Source: Candidatus Binatia bacterium
Lineage (GTDB): Bacteria > Desulfobacterota > Binatia > HRBIN30 > BPIQ01
Direction: 5' to 3'
Length of the DNA stretch: 64,000 nucleotides
Assembly (NCBI GenBank): GCA_026004195.1
Contig: BPIQ01000002.1
Coordinates: forward strand, 124,001 to 188,000
Part shown: positions 8,277 to 30,040 of the stretch, in pieces
How positions within the stretch are numbered: position 1 is the stretch's first letter
How the letters are laid out: every line of letters begins with the position of its first letter
The notes under the pieces: generated by a model
The model's database searches: none
Told to the model about the DNA's origin: nothing
The model's input: the letters and a program-made list of their open reading frames with translations, nothing else
Made by a program: the position numbers and the translations under genes

Positions 8277-9574
8277 TTAACTCACGCTCACCGTGCCCGG
8301 AACGAGTCCCATCGGGACGGACTCCGCCTCCGGAGTCGACCCGTCGGCCGTCCCGCCTACCTGCGTCTCTCCCGCTCCCGCTCCCTCCACGATCCGGAAA
8401 TCGCACTCCATCAATACCCCGTCCGCAATCACGTTGTCGTTGAGCCCGAAAACCACGAAGATCAGCTCCCCGGGACCACCCTCCGACGTGCTCACGTCCT
8501 TCTGCGCCGCCTGCGCCGCAGCCCCGGCCCGGCACTCCACCGCCTCGAGCACCGCCGGGTCGAACGTGAGAGTCCCCGACACGATCGAAATGCTCGCCCC
8601 TCGCCCCACGAGCGACACCTCCACCGTCACCACCTCCCCGGGCGCTCCCGCCGCATCCCCCACCACGAGCTCGGGGAGCGGTATCGCCACGGTTACGGTC
8701 CCCGGAACGAGCCCCATCGGCACCGACTCCGCCTCCGGGGTCGACCCGTCGGCCGTCCCGCCTACCTGCGTCTCTCCCGCTCCCGCTCCCTCCACGATCC
8801 GGAAATCGCACTCCATCAACACCCCGTCCGCAATCACGTTGTCGTTGAGCCCGAAAACCACGAAGATCAGCTCCCCGGGACCACCCTCCGACGTGCTCAC
8901 GTCCTTCTGCGCCGCCTGCGCCGCAGCCCCCGCCCGGCACTCCACCGCCTCGAGCACCGCCGGGTCGAACGTGAGAGTCCCCGACACGATCGAAATGCTC
9001 GCCCCTCGCCCCACGAGCGACACGTCCACCGTCACCACCTCCCCGGGCGCCCCCGCGCATCCCCCACCACGAGCTCGGGGCCGGGCGTGGGAGTTGCCGT
9101 GAGAGTCGGCGTTTCGGAAGGCGTTGCCGTGGCCGTGACCGTAGGTGTGAACGTGGGTGTATTCGTGAACGTCGGGGTGGACGTGACCGTCGGGGTGAGT
9201 GTGACTGTCGGAGTCGTCGTGGGGGCAGGCGTTTCCGTGGGTGTGCCCGTCGGCGTCCCCGTTGGCGTCGAGGTCGCCGTATCGGTGGGAGTACCCGTGG
9301 GCGTTTCCGTAGGAGGAACCGTCGGGGTCGGCGTCCTGCTGGGCGTATCGGTGGGAGCTACGGTGGGAGTGCGCGTCGCCGTCGGCGGTGGAATCGTGTG
9401 TGTGCTCGTGGCGCTCGCGGTGGGCGTCGCAGCTTCGGTCGGCGTAGCGGTCGCTTCTTCCGGCGTGGGAGAGCCGCGCACGACGGACGCCTCGTCGTCG
9501 CCGTTGCACGCGACGAGGTACGAGAAAGCCAGGCAAAGAAGAAAGACTCGACCGATCGTTTTCGCCGACATCAT
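8277..9574 (-). CDS. Surface lipoprotein with two cohesin-like domains (one frameshift)
   Basis: Start ATG-ATG at 9574, with GGAGGGAGG upstream. A lipoprotein signal ends FSYLVAC. A ~110-residue TPT-rich linker follows, then two cohesin-like modules of ~130 residues ([53 protein letters not shown]). Comparison with three sister repeats shows a missing C near 9055 (CCCCGCGCAT against CCCCGCCGCAT). Restoring it gives an intact 432-residue protein ending VSVS. Cohesins are beta-sandwich modules that bind dockerins. The lipid anchor, spacer and tandem cohesins would give an outer-membrane scaffold. Cohesin-like folds also occur outside cellulosomes, so the partner is inferred. Confidence 0.8.
8290..8676 (-). 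repeat. Cohesin-encoding repeat copy R1
   Basis: A 387-bp unit almost identical to the copies starting at 8695, 10373 and 10780, including at synonymous positions. R1 and R2 start 405 bp apart (135 codons). Confidence 0.9.
8695..9080 (-). repeat. Cohesin-encoding repeat copy R2
   Basis: 386 bp, one base shorter than R1 and R4. The missing C near 9055 is the cause of the frameshift in the 8277-9574 gene. Confidence 0.9.
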
Positions 9575-10359: not shown

Positions 10360-12885
10360 CTAGCTCACGCTCACCGCGCCCGGAACGAGTCCCATCTCCA
10401 CGGACTCCGCCTCCGGGGTCGACCCGTCGGCCGTCCCGCCTACCTGCGTCTCTCCCGCTCCCGCTCCCTCCACGATCCGGAAAATCGCACTCCATCAATA
10501 CCCCGTCCGCAATCACGTTGTCGTTGAGCCCGAAAACCACGAAGATCAGCTCCCCGGGACCACCCTCCGACGTGCTCACGTCCTTCTGCGCCGCCTGCGC
10601 CGCAGCCCCCGCCCGAGCACTCCACCGCCTCGAGCACCGCCGGGTCGAACGTGAGAGTCCCCGACACGATCGAAATGCTCGCCCCTCGCCCCACGAGCGA
10701 CACGTCCACCGTCACCACCTCCCCGGGCGCCCCCGCCGCATCCCCCACCACGAGCTCGGGAAGAGAGATTGCCACGCTCACCGTCCCCGCAACCAGCCCC
10801 ATCTCCACGGACTCCGCCTCCGGGGTCGACCCGTCGGCCGTCCCGCCTACCTGCGTCTCTCCCGCTCCCGCTCCCTCCACGATCCGGAAATCGCACTCCA
10901 TCAATACCCCGTCCGCAATCACGTTGTCGTTGAGCCCGAAAACCACGAAGATCAGCTCCCCGGGACCACCCTCCGACGTGCTCACGTCCTTCTGCGCCGC
11001 CTGCGCCGCAGCCCCCGCCCGACACTCCACCGCCTCGAGCACCGCCGGGTCGAACGTGAGAGTCCCCGACACGATCGAAATGCTCGCCCCTCGCCCCACG
11101 AGCGACACGTCCACCGTCACCACCTCCCCGGGCGCCCCCGCCGCGTCCCCCACCACGAGCTCGGGCAGGAGCCCGCCGACCGTGGGCGTTGCCGTCGCCG
11201 TCGGCGAAGGCGTAGGTGTGGGGGGCGCCGGCGTGAAGCTGGGTGTCGCCGTAGGCGGTGGGATCGGTCGGAGTGGGTGTGAGTGGCGGGGCCGTGAAGC
11301 TCGGCGTTGCCGTGGGCGGCACAAGAGTGGCCGTAGCCGTAGGCGGTAACGTCGGCGTGTCTGTCGGCGGAGGCGGCGGGGTGGGAGTCGCTGTCGGAGG
11401 TACGGGCGTGAACGTTCGCGTTGCCGTGGGTGTGGACGTCGGAGCAGCGACGACAATGGCCCCGTCGATCGCCCCGAGGCTCACGGGATTTCCGTTCGCA
11501 TCCGACGCATCGGGCGCGTTCCGGAGCGGCTTCTCGCCGGGCGCGGCGGACGGGGAAATCACGAAACGGCAGGTCGCGAGGCGGCCGTTCGGTATCGGGT
11601 TCGCGTTGGGGGTGGAGACGCCCGCAATGCCGATGCGCAGGAGGCCGGAGGCCGGCTTGCTGGCGAAAAGGTCCTTGTCGGCCGAGGTTCCCGGGCCGAT
11701 CGCCGGGTCGATCTCGCAATCCGGCTCCCCGCCGACCGTCGCCACGTCGACCTGAGAGTCGTCGAATGCGACGTCCGTGGCCACGGCCACGACACCCGCC
11801 GCGTTCTCGAGCGAGATGTCGATCGAGACCGTCGAGCCGGGCGCACCGGTCGCGGTGCCGAGGCGGAGCGCGGGTGTGCCGGGCACCGGTGTTCCGGTCG
11901 CGCTCGGCGTAGGAGTGGCGGTGGGCGTGGCCGTCACGGCAACGGTGGTGGGCGTGAACGTCGGGGTCACCGGCGGGCTCGGCTCGGTAGGCGTACGGGT
12001 CGGTGTGAGGGTAGGAGGCGGCACCTCCGTCGGCGTGCGCGTGACGGTGCGAGTCGGCGTAAGGCTAGGAGGAACGACTTCCGTGGGCGTACGCGTGAAG
12101 GTGCGCGTCGGCGTCGCTGTCCGCAAAGGCGTCTCCGTGGGGGTGTGCGTGCGGGTGCGCGTCGGGGACGGCACGCGTGCCAGCGCGTCCTGGATCGCTC
12201 TCCGCACGCCCTCGTCGGCGTTTGCCATCACGAAAGCGTTCTGGTTGATGGCTTCGGGGGAGTCACCGATCGCGACTCCGGGGGCCTCGCTCACGGCCTG
12301 GAGAATCCGGTCGATCTCGGCGTTCGAAAAATCGCAGAGGTTCGCGCCCCGCGCGACCTCCGCGTAGACGAGACGGACGACCGCTTCGCTCCGGAAGTCG
12401 ATGTTCACGTCCTCCGTCGTGCTGAAAGCAAAAGCGCGGGTGAGCGAACCGCCCGCGTTCGTGTGCACGAGAACCTTGCCTTCCGTCTCGCAGTTCGCGT
12501 CGGCCACGCTGTGACCGTCGAGCGGAATCACGTAGCGGCCTTCGGCATCCGTGGTGGCACTTCCGATCTCGACGCTCCCCACGGCCCTGGCAGGCACGTC
12601 CTCCGGTCGCAAGAGCGTGGCGCGGACGGTCACGCCGGGCGCGGGAGCTACCTGGCCCGTGAGCGCCTTGGCGGTCGAGACGGCCCAGGAAGCGAAGCGA
12701 TTCCAGAGCCCCGTTTCCGCAGCGAAACTGCCCTCCGGCAAGAACACGTTGCCGTCGACGGTCTCGGAGGGCGGGAGCTCGCGAACCACGGTGATTTCCG
12801 CGTCGCCGCCGCAACCGGGCGCCAGAAACACGAGGGCAAGGCAAAAAAGGGCCCGCCGGACAGCGACGGGGAATCGCAGGCTCAT
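10360..12885 (-). CDS. Large lipoprotein with three cohesin-like domains (three +1 frameshifts)
   Basis: ATG 12885 follows GGAGG at good spacing. The lipobox is LAPGC. Residues ~60-170 look like a carboxypeptidase-regulatory-like beta domain (GVTVRATLLRP, TTDAEGRYVIPLDG). A long TPT linker leads to a divergent cohesin (GAPGSTVSIDISLENAAG), a second TPT linker, and two cohesins nearly identical to those of the 8277-9574 gene. Three single-base insertions break the frame: a G in GGG at 11260-11262, a G near 10615 and an A in AAAA near 10482. Removing them gives 840 codons plus a stop (TAG at 10360). The sister repeats prove the last two. It is probably a second outer-membrane scaffold. Confidence 0.78.
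10373..10761 (-). repeat. Cohesin-encoding repeat copy R3
   Basis: 389 bp. It is two bases longer than R1 and R4 because of an extra A (GGAAAATC near 10482) and an extra G (CCCGAGCACT near 10615). Both break the reading frame. Confidence 0.9.
10780..11166 (-). repeat. Cohesin-encoding repeat copy R4
   Basis: 387 bp, in frame throughout and the same length as R1. It starts 407 bp from R3, which is the 405-bp period plus the two inserted bases of R3. Confidence 0.9.
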
Positions 12886-25446: not shown

Positions 25447-26193
25447 TCAAGCTCCGACGAAGCGCGGGCGGCGGCCGCTCATGAACGAACGAATGCCCTC
25501 TTTCCTGTCGCGGGTGGTCTGGAGGAGAACGTAAAGGTCGTCCTCGAGCCGCAACCCCTGCTCCAGGGTGAGTTCGAGGCCGCGGTAGACGGCTTCCTTG
25601 GCGAGCCGCAGAGCGAGCGGCGCCTTCGCCGAGAGTTCGGACACGAGCCGCCGGACTTCCCCTCGCAGAGCGGAGGCGCGACAGACCCGGCTCACGAGCC
25701 CCGCCCGAAGCGCCTCGGCCGCCCCGACGGGCCGCTCGCGCAGCATCATGCCGAGCGCTCGGCTCGGGCCGACGAGCCGCACGAGCCTCTGGATCGCTCC
25801 GAACCCGAGACCCCCGGCGTCTCCCGGACCGGGAAAGAAAAAGCGTGCATCCGCGGACGCTACGCGCAGGTCGCAAGCCAGCGCGAGCTCGCACCCCCGG
25901 GCCGCGGTCCTGCCTCGCAGCACGGCGAGCACGGGCTGGGGAAGGGAGGCCACGGCACGCACGCAATCCACGAACCGCCTCTCGGACTCCTCGATCCCGA
26001 GGCAAAAATCGCGCGCGGACGGCATCAAGACGACCACGCAGAGCTCCGGGCGAAACCGCAGCTCCTCGGCCTCGTCCGAGAGCCGCTGCGCGTCCGCCTC
26101 GGAAAGCCGCTCGGGGAGTCGCAGCCAGACGGCTTTCCCACGGTCTTCCCTCGCGATCCCCGAAGAACGAGCTCCGCGCCCTCCCCGCTTCAT
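25447..26193 (-). CDS. Divergent enoyl-CoA hydratase/isomerase family protein
   Basis: 248 residues of the crotonase fold: VVLMPSARDFCLGIEESER, LRGRTAARGCELALACDLR, GFGAIQRLVRLVGPSRALG, AAEALRAGLVSRV and an ending KEGIRSFMSGRRPRF. The Glu in GCELA is kept. The second catalytic region, normally PEVxxGxxPGxGGTQ, reads PGPGDAGGLGFGAIQ, so hydratase chemistry is doubtful. It starts inside the stop of the acyl-CoA ligase gene (ATGA), so the two are coupled. It could be a hydrolase, an isomerase or a non-catalytic partner. Confidence 0.82.
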   Translation of the reverse strand: MKRGGRGARSSGIAREDRGKAVWLRLPERLSEADAQRLSDEAEELRFRPELCVVVLMPSARDFCLGIEESERRFVDCVRAVASLPQPVLAVLRGRTAARGCELALACDLRVASADARFFFPGPGDAGGLGFGAIQRLVRLVGPSRALGMMLRERPVGAAEALRAGLVSRVCRASALRGEVRRLVSELSAKAPLALRLAKEAVYRGLELTLEQGLRLEDDLYVLLQTTRDRKEGIRSFMSGRRPRFVGA

Positions 26194-27749
26194 CGGCCGG
26201 CAGCGTTTCGTTCGGCGAGCGCCCGCAACTCCCGGCGCAGGAGCTTGCCGAGAGGACTTTTGGGAAGCTCGGGAACGAGGAAAACGAGCTCGGGCTTCTT
26301 GAAGGACGCGAGCCGAGCCCGACAGAACTCCTGCAGCTCCTCGGGCGTGACGCGGGCACCGGGCTTCGGGACGACGAAGGCCACGACCTTCTGCCCCCAT
26401 TCCACGTCCGGGACGCCGACCACGGCAGCTTCGTCGACGGCGGGGTGGGACCCGAGAACGGCTTCCACCTCCGCGGGGGCGATGTTCTCCCCGCCACGGA
26501 TGATGATGTCGTCCTTCCGTCCCGCGAGGTAGAGGTAGCCCTCGTCGTCCACCCAGGCCATGTCGCGGGTGGGAAGCCATCCCCCTTCTCTCAGGGGAGA
26601 ATCGGCACCCGCGTAGCCTTTCATGACGCGCGGCGTCCGAACCCAGAGCTCCCCCACCGTGCCGGGCGGCACCTCCTTCCCTTCCTCGTCGACGATCCGC
26701 ACCTCCACGTCCGGCAGCGGCCGGCCGATCGAGGAGAGCCGCCGGAGTTTTCTCTCGATTTCTTCGGGCGTTCCCTCGAGCCGATGGTCCTCGGGCCCGA
26801 GAAGCGTGAGCGTCGACGTCGTTTCCGTCTGCCCGAAGGCGTTCACGAACCCCACGGTCTTCGGAAAGCGCTCGATGGCCTCGCGGATCACCGGGAGCGG
26901 CATCGGGGCACCGCCGTACGAGAGGACCTCGAGGCTCCGGAGGTCGGCGCGGTCGAACTCCGGGTGGCCGAGAATCTGCTTGAGCATCGTCGGGACGACG
27001 AAGGCGTGGGTCACGCGAAAGCGCGTCACGGCATCGAGCCAGCTTTTGGGTTCGAACTGCGGGAGAAGGACGAGGCGCCGGCCCGTGAAGAGCGTCGTCA
27101 TGACGTTCGTCATTCCGGCGATGTGGTAGAGGGGGACGCAGAGGAGAGCCGTCCCTCTGGGCGTGCCGTCGGCGAGCTCGACGTTGTTGCAGACGTAGAC
27201 GGTGAAGTCCCCGTAGGTCAGGAGCACGGCCTTGGGCATGGCCGTGGTACCGCTCGTGTACATGAGAACCGTCGTCTCCTCGTCTTCCACGTCCACTTCG
27301 GTGAACTCCGGGGACGCCGCCGCCACCATGTCTTCCAGGCCGGGAAACTCGCCCTCGGGGGATTCCAGGCAGACGATCTTTCGCACGCCAGAAATCTGTT
27401 CGCGGAGAGAGCGCACCACGGGGAGATAACGCGCGCCCACGAGGAGCACGGCCGTGCGGGCCGCCTCGATCATGTAGCGAAGCTCGGGGGGCTTGGCCCG
27501 GTAGTTCAGCGGAAGGAAGACGCCGCCGAGAGCAGCGGTCGCGAAATACGCCTCGACGTACTGGTGGGAGTTCGTCTGGAGGACGGCCACCGTGTCGCCC
27601 CGGCCCACGCCGAGCTCGCGTAGAGCGTTGGCCGTGCGCCGGATGCGCTCCCAGAGTTTTCCGTAAGTCAGGCGTACGGACCCGGAGACCAGGATTTCCT
27701 GGTCGGGAAACATCTGGGCCGGGATGCTGACGAAGTTCGACGTGTTCAC
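26190..27749 (-). CDS. AMP-forming acyl-CoA ligase/synthetase
   Basis: 519 residues of the ANL superfamily. Phosphate loop MYTSGTTAMPKAV (~162), YGGAPMPLPV, FGQTETTSTLT, then GWLPTRDMAWVDDEGYLYL, the hinge GRKDDIIIRGGENI and the C-terminal catalytic Lys in LPKSPLGKLLRREL. It activates a carboxylic acid to the acyl-AMP and then the CoA thioester. The substrate is not visible. The following crotonase and desulforedoxin-like gene suggest a small acyl-CoA degradation or modification unit. Start ATG 27749, with no strong ribosome site (GGAGGAAACC at moderate distance). Confidence 0.93.
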   Translation of the reverse strand: MNTSNFVSIPAQMFPDQEILVSGSVRLTYGKLWERIRRTANALRELGVGRGDTVAVLQTNSHQYVEAYFATAALGGVFLPLNYRAKPPELRYMIEAARTAVLLVGARYLPVVRSLREQISGVRKIVCLESPEGEFPGLEDMVAAASPEFTEVDVEDEETTVLMYTSGTTAMPKAVLLTYGDFTVYVCNNVELADGTPRGTALLCVPLYHIAGMTNVMTTLFTGRRLVLLPQFEPKSWLDAVTRFRVTHAFVVPTMLKQILGHPEFDRADLRSLEVLSYGGAPMPLPVIREAIERFPKTVGFVNAFGQTETTSTLTLLGPEDHRLEGTPEEIERKLRRLSSIGRPLPDVEVRIVDEEGKEVPPGTVGELWVRTPRVMKGYAGADSPLREGGWLPTRDMAWVDDEGYLYLAGRKDDIIIRGGENIAPAEVEAVLGSHPAVDEAAVVGVPDVEWGQKVVAFVVPKPGARVTPEELQEFCRARLASFKKPELVFLVPELPKSPLGKLLRRELRALAERNAAGR

Positions 27750-27776: not shown

Positions 27777-28150
27777 GCCGCGTGTTCGGGAACGGCACCG
27801 GCGGTCATCGAGGACGTCCGACCGGCGGGTTCCCGCCCCGCCCCCGGACGCGACGGAGCGCGTCCCTCCGCGTGGACGTGTTCGCGAACGGTCCCGGCGG
27901 TCCTGAACGACATCCGACGGGCGCGTCCCCCCGCCCCTGGACGCGACGGAGCGCGTCCCTCCGCGTGGACGTGTTCGCGAACGGTCCCGGCGGTCCTGAA
28001 CGGCATCCGACGGGCGCGTCCCCCCGCCCCGGACGCGACGGAGCGCGTCCCTCCGCGTGGACGTGTTCGCGAACGGTCCCGGCGGTCGTGAACGGCATCC
28101 GACGGGCGCGTCCCCCCGCCCCGGACGCGACGGAGCGCGTCCCTCCGGAC
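27777..28150. repeat. ~92-93-bp tandem repeat array (about four copies)
   Basis: Units begin with the palindromic core GGACGCGACGGAGCGCGTCC (7-bp arms). The GGA within that core recurs at 27855, 27948, 28040 and 28132, giving periods of 93, 92 and 92 bp. A degenerate part-copy lies at 27777-27850. Each unit also holds GTGTTCGCGAACGGTCCCGG and CATCCGACGGGCGCGTC. Because 92 is not a multiple of 3, the encoded peptide changes from unit to unit. The array lies inside the 3' end of the crotonase gene. Confidence 0.9.
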
Positions 28151-28833
28151 GCGTTTCGCCCGACGAAGTCCTGCGAGGCGCGCAGCGCTTGCTTGAGCCG
28201 ACGCCGAGCCGTGCGATCGAGTCGGGCGAAGGAGCGAGCCATCCCGAGGGCCACCGCGTCGAGTCGCTCGCGGGAAACGACGCGCTCGAGGAGTCCCGCC
28301 CGCCGGAGCTCCTCCGCGGAAAGCCACCGGCCCGTGAGAATCCAGTCGAGCGCGTATCCGAGCCCCGCTTTCCGCGGGAGGGTCTGGGTTCCACCGACCC
28401 CGGGGATCAGACCGAGTCCGGTCTCGGGGAAGCGAAAGCGCGCATCGCGGCTCGCGATACAGACATCGCAGAGAAGGGCCATCTCCCAGCCACCACCCAG
28501 GACGTAGCCGTGCACCGCGGCCACCGTGAGTGCGTCGAGCCCGAGAAGGACCCCCCACACGTCCCGCTCCCGCCGCACGCTCCGCGCCACGAGCGGAGAC
28601 GGGGCCGAACCGAACTCCCGGAGGTCGCCCCCGCTCGAGAACGACGGCCCGTTCCCGCGGAGCACGAGCACGCGCACTTCCGTGTCGTCCCGGACGGCGG
28701 TGAACGCTTCGTAGAGCGCGTCCCTCATCCGGACGTCGTACGCGTTGTGAACCTCGGGCCGGTTCAGGCTCACGACGGCAATCGGCCCCCGTTTCTCGTA
28801 GAGGGCGGCGGCAGGAAACTCTCTTCGCGTCAC
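27805..28833 (-). CDS. Enoyl-CoA hydratase with repeat-encoded C-terminal tail
   Basis: Residues 1-~228 are a good crotonase: SLNRPEVHNAYD, the oxyanion region FSSGGDLREFG, and both catalytic Glu in GGGWEMALLCD and FPETGLGLIPGVGGTQ. After QALRASQDFVG the normal ~30-residue C-terminal helix is lost. The frame instead continues ~114 residues through the tandem repeat array, giving Arg/Gly-rich low-complexity sequence. The repeat probably invaded or expanded into the 3' end. The truncated enzyme may lack its trimer-forming helix. GTG start at 28833, 11 bases after the stop of the desulforedoxin-like gene. Confidence 0.8.
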   Translation of the reverse strand: MTRREFPAAALYEKRGPIAVVSLNRPEVHNAYDVRMRDALYEAFTAVRDDTEVRVLVLRGNGPSFSSGGDLREFGSAPSPLVARSVRRERDVWGVLLGLDALTVAAVHGYVLGGGWEMALLCDVCIASRDARFRFPETGLGLIPGVGGTQTLPRKAGLGYALDWILTGRWLSAEELRRAGLLERVVSRERLDAVALGMARSFARLDRTARRRLKQALRASQDFVGRNASGGTRSVASGAGGRARRMPFTTAGTVREHVHAEGRAPSRPGRGDAPVGCRSGPPGPFANTSTRRDALRRVQGRGDAPVGCRSGPPGPFANTSTRRDALRRVRGRGGNPPVGRPR

Positions 28834-28843
28834 GAAGCGCCGC

Positions 28844-28987
28844 TCAATCCGAGGAGGGAAGCGGCTTGGCTTCTTTGAGCTTCATCTCCTCGTCGCAGCA
28901 CACGAGCGTCCCGGGGCCGGGCTTGTTGCAGAGCGCCTCCGTCCCGCACTTCTCGCAGTAGTACCGCTTACCGAGTTGCGTCGGCAT
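28844..28987 (-). CDS. Desulforedoxin-like microprotein 2
   Basis: 47 residues: MPTQLGKRYYCEKCGTEALC, then GTLVCCDEEMKLKEA. CXXCG and CC are spaced as in desulforedoxin. It clearly relates to the protein at 25304-25420 (MPxQxGKxYxCxKCG). It starts 20 bases inside the end of the YgfZ-like gene, with GGAGGGACGGAAAGACG before the ATG, and is followed by a crotonase gene. Both copies therefore neighbour crotonases. It probably binds iron or zinc. Its partner is unknown. Confidence 0.8.
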   Translation of the reverse strand: MPTQLGKRYYCEKCGTEALCNKPGPGTLVCCDEEMKLKEAKPLPSSD

Positions 28988-30023
28988 CGTCTTTCCGTCC
29001 CTCCGTTGTCGTTTTTCGAAAAGGCGGGGGAACGACCGTCGCCTTCCGCCCTTCGAGGTCGAGCTCCGTACCGGGAGCCGCGAATTCCCGCCGGACGTAT
29101 CCCATGCCGAGCGTGCTCTTCACGAGTGGAGAGAACGCGGAGCTCGTCACGAAACCCACCTCTTTTCCGCCGCACGCGAGCGGTGTCCGGGGTGGCACGG
29201 GCTCCCCGTCGAAAACGAAAAGCACCCGCAGCCGGTTCACGTGCCCCCGGGCCGCGATCCGCTCGACGACCTCCTGTCCCACGTAGCACCCTTTCCGGAA
29301 GCTCACCGCGTCCTCGAGACCCACTTCCATGAGCAGTGTCGTCTCGTCCATGTCGCGTCCGAGAAGCGGCACCCCGGCCTCGAGCCTGAGCACGTCGAGT
29401 GCCAGCGCGCCCACGGGGACCGCTCCCTTTTCGCACAGAACGTCCCAGAGCCCCCGGTCCTCCACCCGGAGGAGCAAACCGGGCTCTCCGGAGAGCGAAG
29501 CCGTGACCCACTCGGCGGGGTACCCCGCGATCCGGCCGCTGCCGAGAACGAGACTCCCGGGCAGCTCGAAACCGAGGGCTTCGAGGAAGCGCGGAAGCTC
29601 CCGCCCCTCGAGGCCCAAAAGCGCCCCCTCGACTTCCTCGAGCTCCACGTCGTCGGCGACGACGTGCCGTTCGAGCGTCTCGCGCCCCCGACCGGCACCC
29701 GAAGCCGGGAAATCGAGCAGGAACGAGTCTTCCCCCGCGTAGATCCGCAGATCCGTCACGACCTTTCCCTGCACGGTGAGGATGGCCGCAGGGAGCCCGC
29801 GGCCCCGCACGAGACCTCGCACGTCGTTCGTCACCATCCCCTGTAGAAAAGCCTCTCGATCGGCGCCGTACACGCGGACCCAGCGGCGGAAAGACGCCGG
29901 GAAGACCCCGACGCCCTCCCGGACCGCACGCCACTCCTCCACGACGCCGGAAAAGCAGGCCGGAAGAGAAGCCCCGAGAAACTCGACGGGTTTTCCGACT
30001 TCCTCCGATCGAACGACTTCCAT
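28968..30023 (-). CDS. ygfZ: YgfZ/GcvT-family folate-binding protein
   Basis: 351 residues of the aminomethyltransferase-like fold. The YgfZ signature is present as FRKGCYVGQEVVERI, followed by ARGHVNRLRVLFVF. Earlier motifs are FLQGMVTNDVRGL and LTVQGKVVTDLRIY. YgfZ binds tetrahydrofolate and helps build or repair Fe-S clusters. The conserved Cys of the signature is present. The gene follows the RND pump gene by 17 bases and overlaps a desulforedoxin-like gene, which fits a link with iron proteins. Confidence 0.9.
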   Translation of the reverse strand: MEVVRSEEVGKPVEFLGASLPACFSGVVEEWRAVREGVGVFPASFRRWVRVYGADREAFLQGMVTNDVRGLVRGRGLPAAILTVQGKVVTDLRIYAGEDSFLLDFPASGAGRGRETLERHVVADDVELEEVEGALLGLEGRELPRFLEALGFELPGSLVLGSGRIAGYPAEWVTASLSGEPGLLLRVEDRGLWDVLCEKGAVPVGALALDVLRLEAGVPLLGRDMDETTLLMEVGLEDAVSFRKGCYVGQEVVERIAARGHVNRLRVLFVFDGEPVPPRTPLACGGKEVGFVTSSAFSPLVKSTLGMGYVRREFAAPGTELDLEGRKATVVPPPFRKTTTEGRKDDADATR

Positions 30024-30040
30024 CGGCTCGGTCCGGGATT

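Follow-up and report, generated by a model that had tools for sequence, protein, structure and literature searches.

A crotonase reading frame that runs into an array of REP-like hairpins amplified in its genome

The window analysed here, a stretch of 64,000 nucleotides, contains a crotonase gene whose reading frame ends in tandem repeats, which raises the question of whether this repetitive end is a working part of the protein or sequence that the frame happens to cross. The open reading frame (ORF) encodes 342 amino acids from a GTG start (minus strand, 28833-27805). It had been proposed in an earlier note that the enzyme keeps both catalytic glutamates, loses about 30 family residues at its C-terminus, reads instead through about 114 residues of repeat and, with a repeat period of 92-93 bp, could be a length-switching gene. 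The gene and its neighbours are arranged as follows:

28968..30026, minus strand: putative folate-binding (YgfZ/GcvT-like) gene; upstream, in the conserved block, start approximate (tblastn, 41-49% identity)
28156..28833, minus strand: crotonase (enoyl-CoA hydratase/isomerase family) core, residues 1-226, with both catalytic Glu (Pfam, orthologue identity, AlphaFold2)
27805..28155, minus strand: predicted read-through tail, 116 residues from the repeat array (open frame, codon log-odds, pLDDT)
26190..27749, minus strand: AMP-binding acyl-CoA ligase, GTG start, next in the conserved block (Pfam AMP-binding, E=5.5e-89)
25447..26190, minus strand: second crotonase-like gene in the same gene run (Pfam ECH_1, E=2e-31)

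The first part of the protein belongs to the crotonase family. Pfam ECH_1 matches residues 15-221 (profile positions 3-209 of 251, E=8.8e-46), and E117 (in GGGWEMALLCD) and E137 (in FRFPETGLG) align with the two catalytic glutamate positions of the family, as the note had it. Over residues 15-221 both the fold and the glutamate pair are like those of family PF00378, whereas the C-terminal block is encoded here by repeats.

To place this ending, the protein was compared with 19 orthologues of 235-268 aa, which belong to other genera and families and are 53-64% identical to it. All 19 have a normal C-terminal end, and none carries repeats or stops equally early. A C-terminal block, L..(G)L.LE.RL, is common to nearly all of them; in the window crotonase it is replaced, with the loss of five of the near-invariant positions of the orthologue group, so that the native end has indeed given way to repeat sequence. 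The size of the loss needs correcting: about 30 residues are missing relative to classical crotonases of 258-260 aa, but only about 17-30 relative to its own orthologues, which are shorter than the classical enzymes, so that part of the supposed loss is family-wide.

The surrounding genes point to the same event. The crotonase is adjacent to the acyl-CoA ligase in 18 of the 19 relatives and the folate-binding gene lies upstream in 11; repeats between crotonase and ligase are absent in those 18. In the window a small ORF between the folate-binding gene and the crotonase is set aside. The ligase start lies 472 nt from crotonase residue 205 here and 116-219 nt from it in the 18 relatives, among which a 4-nt stop/start overlap of the two genes is frequent. 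The Shine-Dalgarno-like GGAGG upstream of the ligase GTG is intact. A native end pushed 3' of the array was also considered and was not found, LE.RL being readable in no frame. Since only about 30 nt separate the array edge from the ligase start, the old end would have been removed rather than moved downstream, and the array would have replaced at least about 17 crotonase codons plus the stop. The relatives compared belong to other families, and it is from them that the state before insertion is reconstructed; searching genome contigs for related loci with a crotonase returned distant crotonases only. As a separate observation, one of the array frames would stop at a TGA that overlaps the ligase GTG by 4 nt (GTGA, 27746-27749), the same crotonase/ligase overlap as in eight relatives, which could be left over from the old end or be due to chance.

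A gene that has lost five near-invariant positions could be a decaying pseudogene broken by the array, and a second gene of this genome shows that arrays can destroy genes: in an MBL-fold gene (L083:6630-7676) the frame enters an array after about 100 residues, the Pfam match covers 76 of 196 profile positions, and the gene appears truncated at roughly half its length. The crotonase core, on the other hand, retains 77 of 93 conserved columns (83%), with five of the 16 misses falling in the lost C-terminus, and the orthologues themselves keep 81-98% in a leave-one-out comparison (lowest two 81% and 85%). It also has normal codon log-odds, no internal stop and a good predicted fold. We therefore regard decay of the whole gene as unlikely.

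The array itself is regular. Tandem Repeats Finder (TRF) delimits it at 27781-28147 with a period of 92, 3.9 copies and 93% matches, and the steps from core to core are 92, 92 and 93, which bears out the 92-93 bp period given earlier. Its elements are:

27781..28147, minus strand: tandem array with a 92-93 bp unit and four GGAG-hairpin cores (TRF, genome-wide family)
28123..28146, minus strand: hairpin copy 1, GGAG GGACGCG CTCCGT CGCGTCC (single-stranded DNA fold of -8.5 kcal/mol, 7-bp stem)
28031..28054, minus strand: hairpin copy 2 (core match)
27939..27962, minus strand: hairpin copy 3 (core match)
27846..27869, minus strand: hairpin copy 4 (core match)

All four cores share one orientation, and the 20-nt core occurs four times in the window vs 0.13 expected from dinucleotide shuffles. 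Only one base distinguishes unit 1 from unit 2, and the lone 93-bp unit owes its length to a one-base difference in a G-run. By eye, no clear target-site duplication was seen at the unit boundaries, and the array has no Rfam match. Two other tandem duplications lie in the window, at 8296-9080 and 10366-11165, each with a 405-bp period, similar units and copies about 97% identical.

Reading through this array adds 116 residues from residue 227 on, in good agreement with the number first proposed. All three minus-strand frames are stop-free, to 27807, 27767 and 27748. The codon log-odds reach about +90 over the enzyme and then fall by 18.7 over 117 array codons in the ORF frame (-18.7, -36.4 and -25.3 for the three minus frames), the codon bias stopping near the array edge. 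AlphaFold2, on a shallow alignment of six sequences, gave pLDDT values mostly of 77-98 at residues 11-220, lower (65) around residues 71-80, and below 50 at tail residues 225-288 and 302-342; on this model the tail is probably disordered. Taken together, the open frames, the end of the codon bias and the low AlphaFold confidence make the tail read as non-coding repeat: a translation of a dispersed hairpin repeat that is found mostly between genes elsewhere in the genome.

With a unit length that is not a multiple of three, the array could still act as a contingency locus, in which gain or loss of units switches the length or frame of a functional tail. The single-base difference between units 1 and 2 makes a recent duplication, and hence a change in copy number, plausible, and in simulated arrays of one to eight cores the tail ranged from 37 to 239 residues. 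The same simulations left the ORF open at every copy number (263-465 aa), as follows from three stop-free frames; since no array frame contains a stop, the gene is neither cut short nor silenced at any copy number, and the shift into a stop that marks a phase-variable gene does not occur. On/off switching of length or phase is thus ruled out by the copy-number simulation. Of the earlier suggestion that unit gain or loss would alter both frame and tail length, a tail of potentially variable length stands, while a frame switch does not. A length-switching gene is further contradicted by the negative codon scores, the low-confidence prediction for the tail and the mostly intergenic position of the same repeats elsewhere, and we consider a contingency locus highly improbable.

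G-runs are typical error sites in long-read assemblies. The extra base of the 93-bp unit sits in one, and indels there, or a collapsed array, might have falsified the frame or length reported here. However, with all three frames open, such indels would not close the ORF, and four exact cores, as well as about 75 sampled sites with arrays of this kind, make a sequencing or assembly artefact very unlikely.

The array is not specific to the crotonase gene but belongs to a genome-wide family. BLAST finds matches to it at 108 or more sites of the 3.63-Mb genome. The underlying 24-nt element consists of a GGAG head, a 7-bp stem and a 6-nt loop, CTCYGT. The type-A 24-nt core occurs 411 times with at most two mismatches (none in the reversed control), and exact copies of three stem types number 553 in this genome, with none in 147 further genomes of its class. 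In 39 stretches plus the window, CTCYGT is enclosed by a perfect 7-bp stem 343 times, against 0 in shuffled or reversed sequence: GGACGCG 212 times (with both loops), GGCCACG 101, GGACCCG 29 and GGGCGCG once. The GGAG head precedes 322 of these 343.

A sample of 75 arrays, drawn from stretches chosen by repeat matches, holds 429 hairpins, up to 27 in the largest array. Each array has its own unit length, direct and inverted copies both occur, and inverted neighbours are often 45-60 nt apart. The arrays are mainly intergenic, between genes that are unidirectional (41), convergent (22) or divergent (8), and often begin a few bp past gene stops; 41 of 85 flanking stop codons lie within 60 bp of an array edge vs 11 of 57 starts. 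These context counts are estimates, as gene ends came from a simple codon-score caller and the arrays from repeat matches. In those sampled arrays that reach 200 bp or more, stops are lacking from 162 of 336 frames, so that a gene invaded by an array stands a reasonable chance of acquiring an open tail. The crotonase has company: the frames of an M20 peptidase gene (L081:1479-3518) and an SDH-type serine protease gene (L088:1766-3361), both with strong codon scores, also run through an array for more than 200 codons.

The preference for gene 3' ends, and the RNA roles proposed for REPs (PMC3733652), would suit an array recruited as an RNA element (a terminator, a stabiliser or a ribosome-stalling REP) that tunes crotonase expression relative to the ligase. 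The whole-array RNA, however, is no more stably folded than its shuffles (z = +1.7), and translation into the array would presumably melt the hairpins, which renders such recruitment distinctly unlikely.

The element also exists in other genomes. The hairpin pattern is present in 6 of 395 genomes of the phylum, with 572 copies here and 1-4 elsewhere, a few of the single matches having one unpaired position. Genome G323, from another class of the same phylum, holds four exact 24-nt copies (L093-L096) in stretches of unrelated, unique sequence with 48-49% G+C, which identifies the 24 nt as the unit. The hairpin flanks none of the Y1 genes of that genome.

In IMG/VR, the pattern GGAGGGNNNNGCTCYGTCNNNNCC, in which head, loop and outer pairs are fixed and four stem pairs are left free, retrieved 41 distinct sites. 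Of these, 27 are fully paired at the four free positions, with 11 different stems in 14 loci, and the other 14 contain between two and four mismatches; a single mismatch was not seen. As four free pairs are complementary by chance about once in 256, the paired stem, rather than its sequence, is what is kept. The type-A core alone had no match in IMG/VR, and wider hairpin patterns retrieved 3 and 32 stretches. The 24-nt GGAG-stem-CTCYGT-stem arrangement was seen in unrelated IMG/VR contigs (L097-L099, L101, L103, L105, L107, L113-L116, L124, L127 and L128). At L097 the hairpin lies within the last codons of a DDE transposase ORF (Mu-like, by eye), and at L113 and L124 it occurs in tandem copies spaced by 33 or 62-63 bp.

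These properties invite comparison with REPs. The REPs with a GTAG/CGTC tag are stem-loops of 20-40 bp with stems of 6-9 bp, present in hundreds of copies; they form sub-families with alternative complementary stem residues, occur as dimers and groups, and are mainly intergenic and near 3' ends, with a minority inside ORFs, coding ends included (PMC3733652). The present element resembles them in stem-loop size (24 nt, -8.5 kcal/mol, covarying stems), in the tag at one end, in copy number, in its stem sub-families, in grouping and in 3'-end location. It differs in its tag, GGAG, which is unlike GTAG, CGTC or the degenerate GYAG, GYRG, GTRG, GTMG and GTGG, and in its 6-nt CTCYGT loop. REPs are defined by a GT(A/G)G head and by their association with a RAYT (PMC2817692); the head here is another, and PF01797 (Y1/RAYT) matched control genomes but nothing in this genome (98.9% complete), even at E<=10, so that no cognate Y1 gene flanked by repeats (a REPtron) was found. 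With a GGAG tag and no RAYT, the family is best called REP-like, lacking two membership features. CGTC REPs are likewise said to be without a dedicated transposase (PMC3733652). As in the BIMEs or REPINs that go with RAYTs (PMC2817692, PMC3116915), many arrays here mix direct and inverted copies, with inverted neighbours about 45-60 nt apart; the crotonase array is of single orientation.

On the protein side, ORFs decorated by REPs have already been described, and in Rickettsia palindromic elements (RPE) are translated within the host protein (PMC3733652). Both situations give repeat sequence read as part of a host protein, as predicted for the crotonase; the RPE is an in-frame internal insert, whereas here a terminal array with open frames has cost the native end. 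Literature searches on REP insertions in coding sequence yielded nothing beyond background on Rickettsia and MITEs. The hairpin sequences themselves were absent from the literature text within reach of the search, to which supplements and most subscription papers were external, and this absence is weak evidence of novelty. We take the GGAG/CTCYGT hairpin for a new family within a known kind of element, and the crotonase looks like a REP-tagged ORF, an accident of a known sort.

The explanation that we find well supported, and hold with considerable confidence, is that the crotonase gene was hit at its 3' end by a REP-like hairpin, which expanded and removed that end, leaving an incidental tail on a core that looks maintained. 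A 24-nt GGAG/CTCYGT element, multiplied in this genome to over 550 copies, would have inserted at the crotonase 3' end within a tightly packed, conserved gene block; the insertion, with a small deletion, would have taken away the stop together with no fewer than about 17 codons before it, and the element would have expanded into a four-unit tandem array. Because the GC-rich repeat is stop-free in all minus-strand frames, the crotonase ORF would then run on until it meets a fortuitous stop at 27805, which leaves 55 nt to the start of the acyl-CoA ligase. That the tail would be translated, that the truncated crotonase would be active and that the hairpin element would be mobile is what we infer from sequence, by which the enzyme core also looks maintained. 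Beyond this locus, the hairpin may represent an undescribed REP-like mobile family that reaches across distant bacteria and mobile-element contigs, is moved here by something other than a Y1 enzyme and, in being amplified, rewrites the 3' ends of host genes, with an occasional new C-terminus; this wider reading is possible but rather doubtful.

For the protein, there is little out of the ordinary: an open-frame repeat has overrun the end of a gene. The case is useful in cautioning annotators against the long spurious tails to which high-GC repeats give rise. More promising is the repeat itself, whose head and loop stay constant while its stems change freely and are always paired; it occurs in unrelated bacteria and is massively amplified in one genome without a recognisable Y1 transposase. 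If confirmed, REP-like elements would extend beyond the GTAG/RAYT model, and this genome would offer a clean case for finding their mobilising enzyme.
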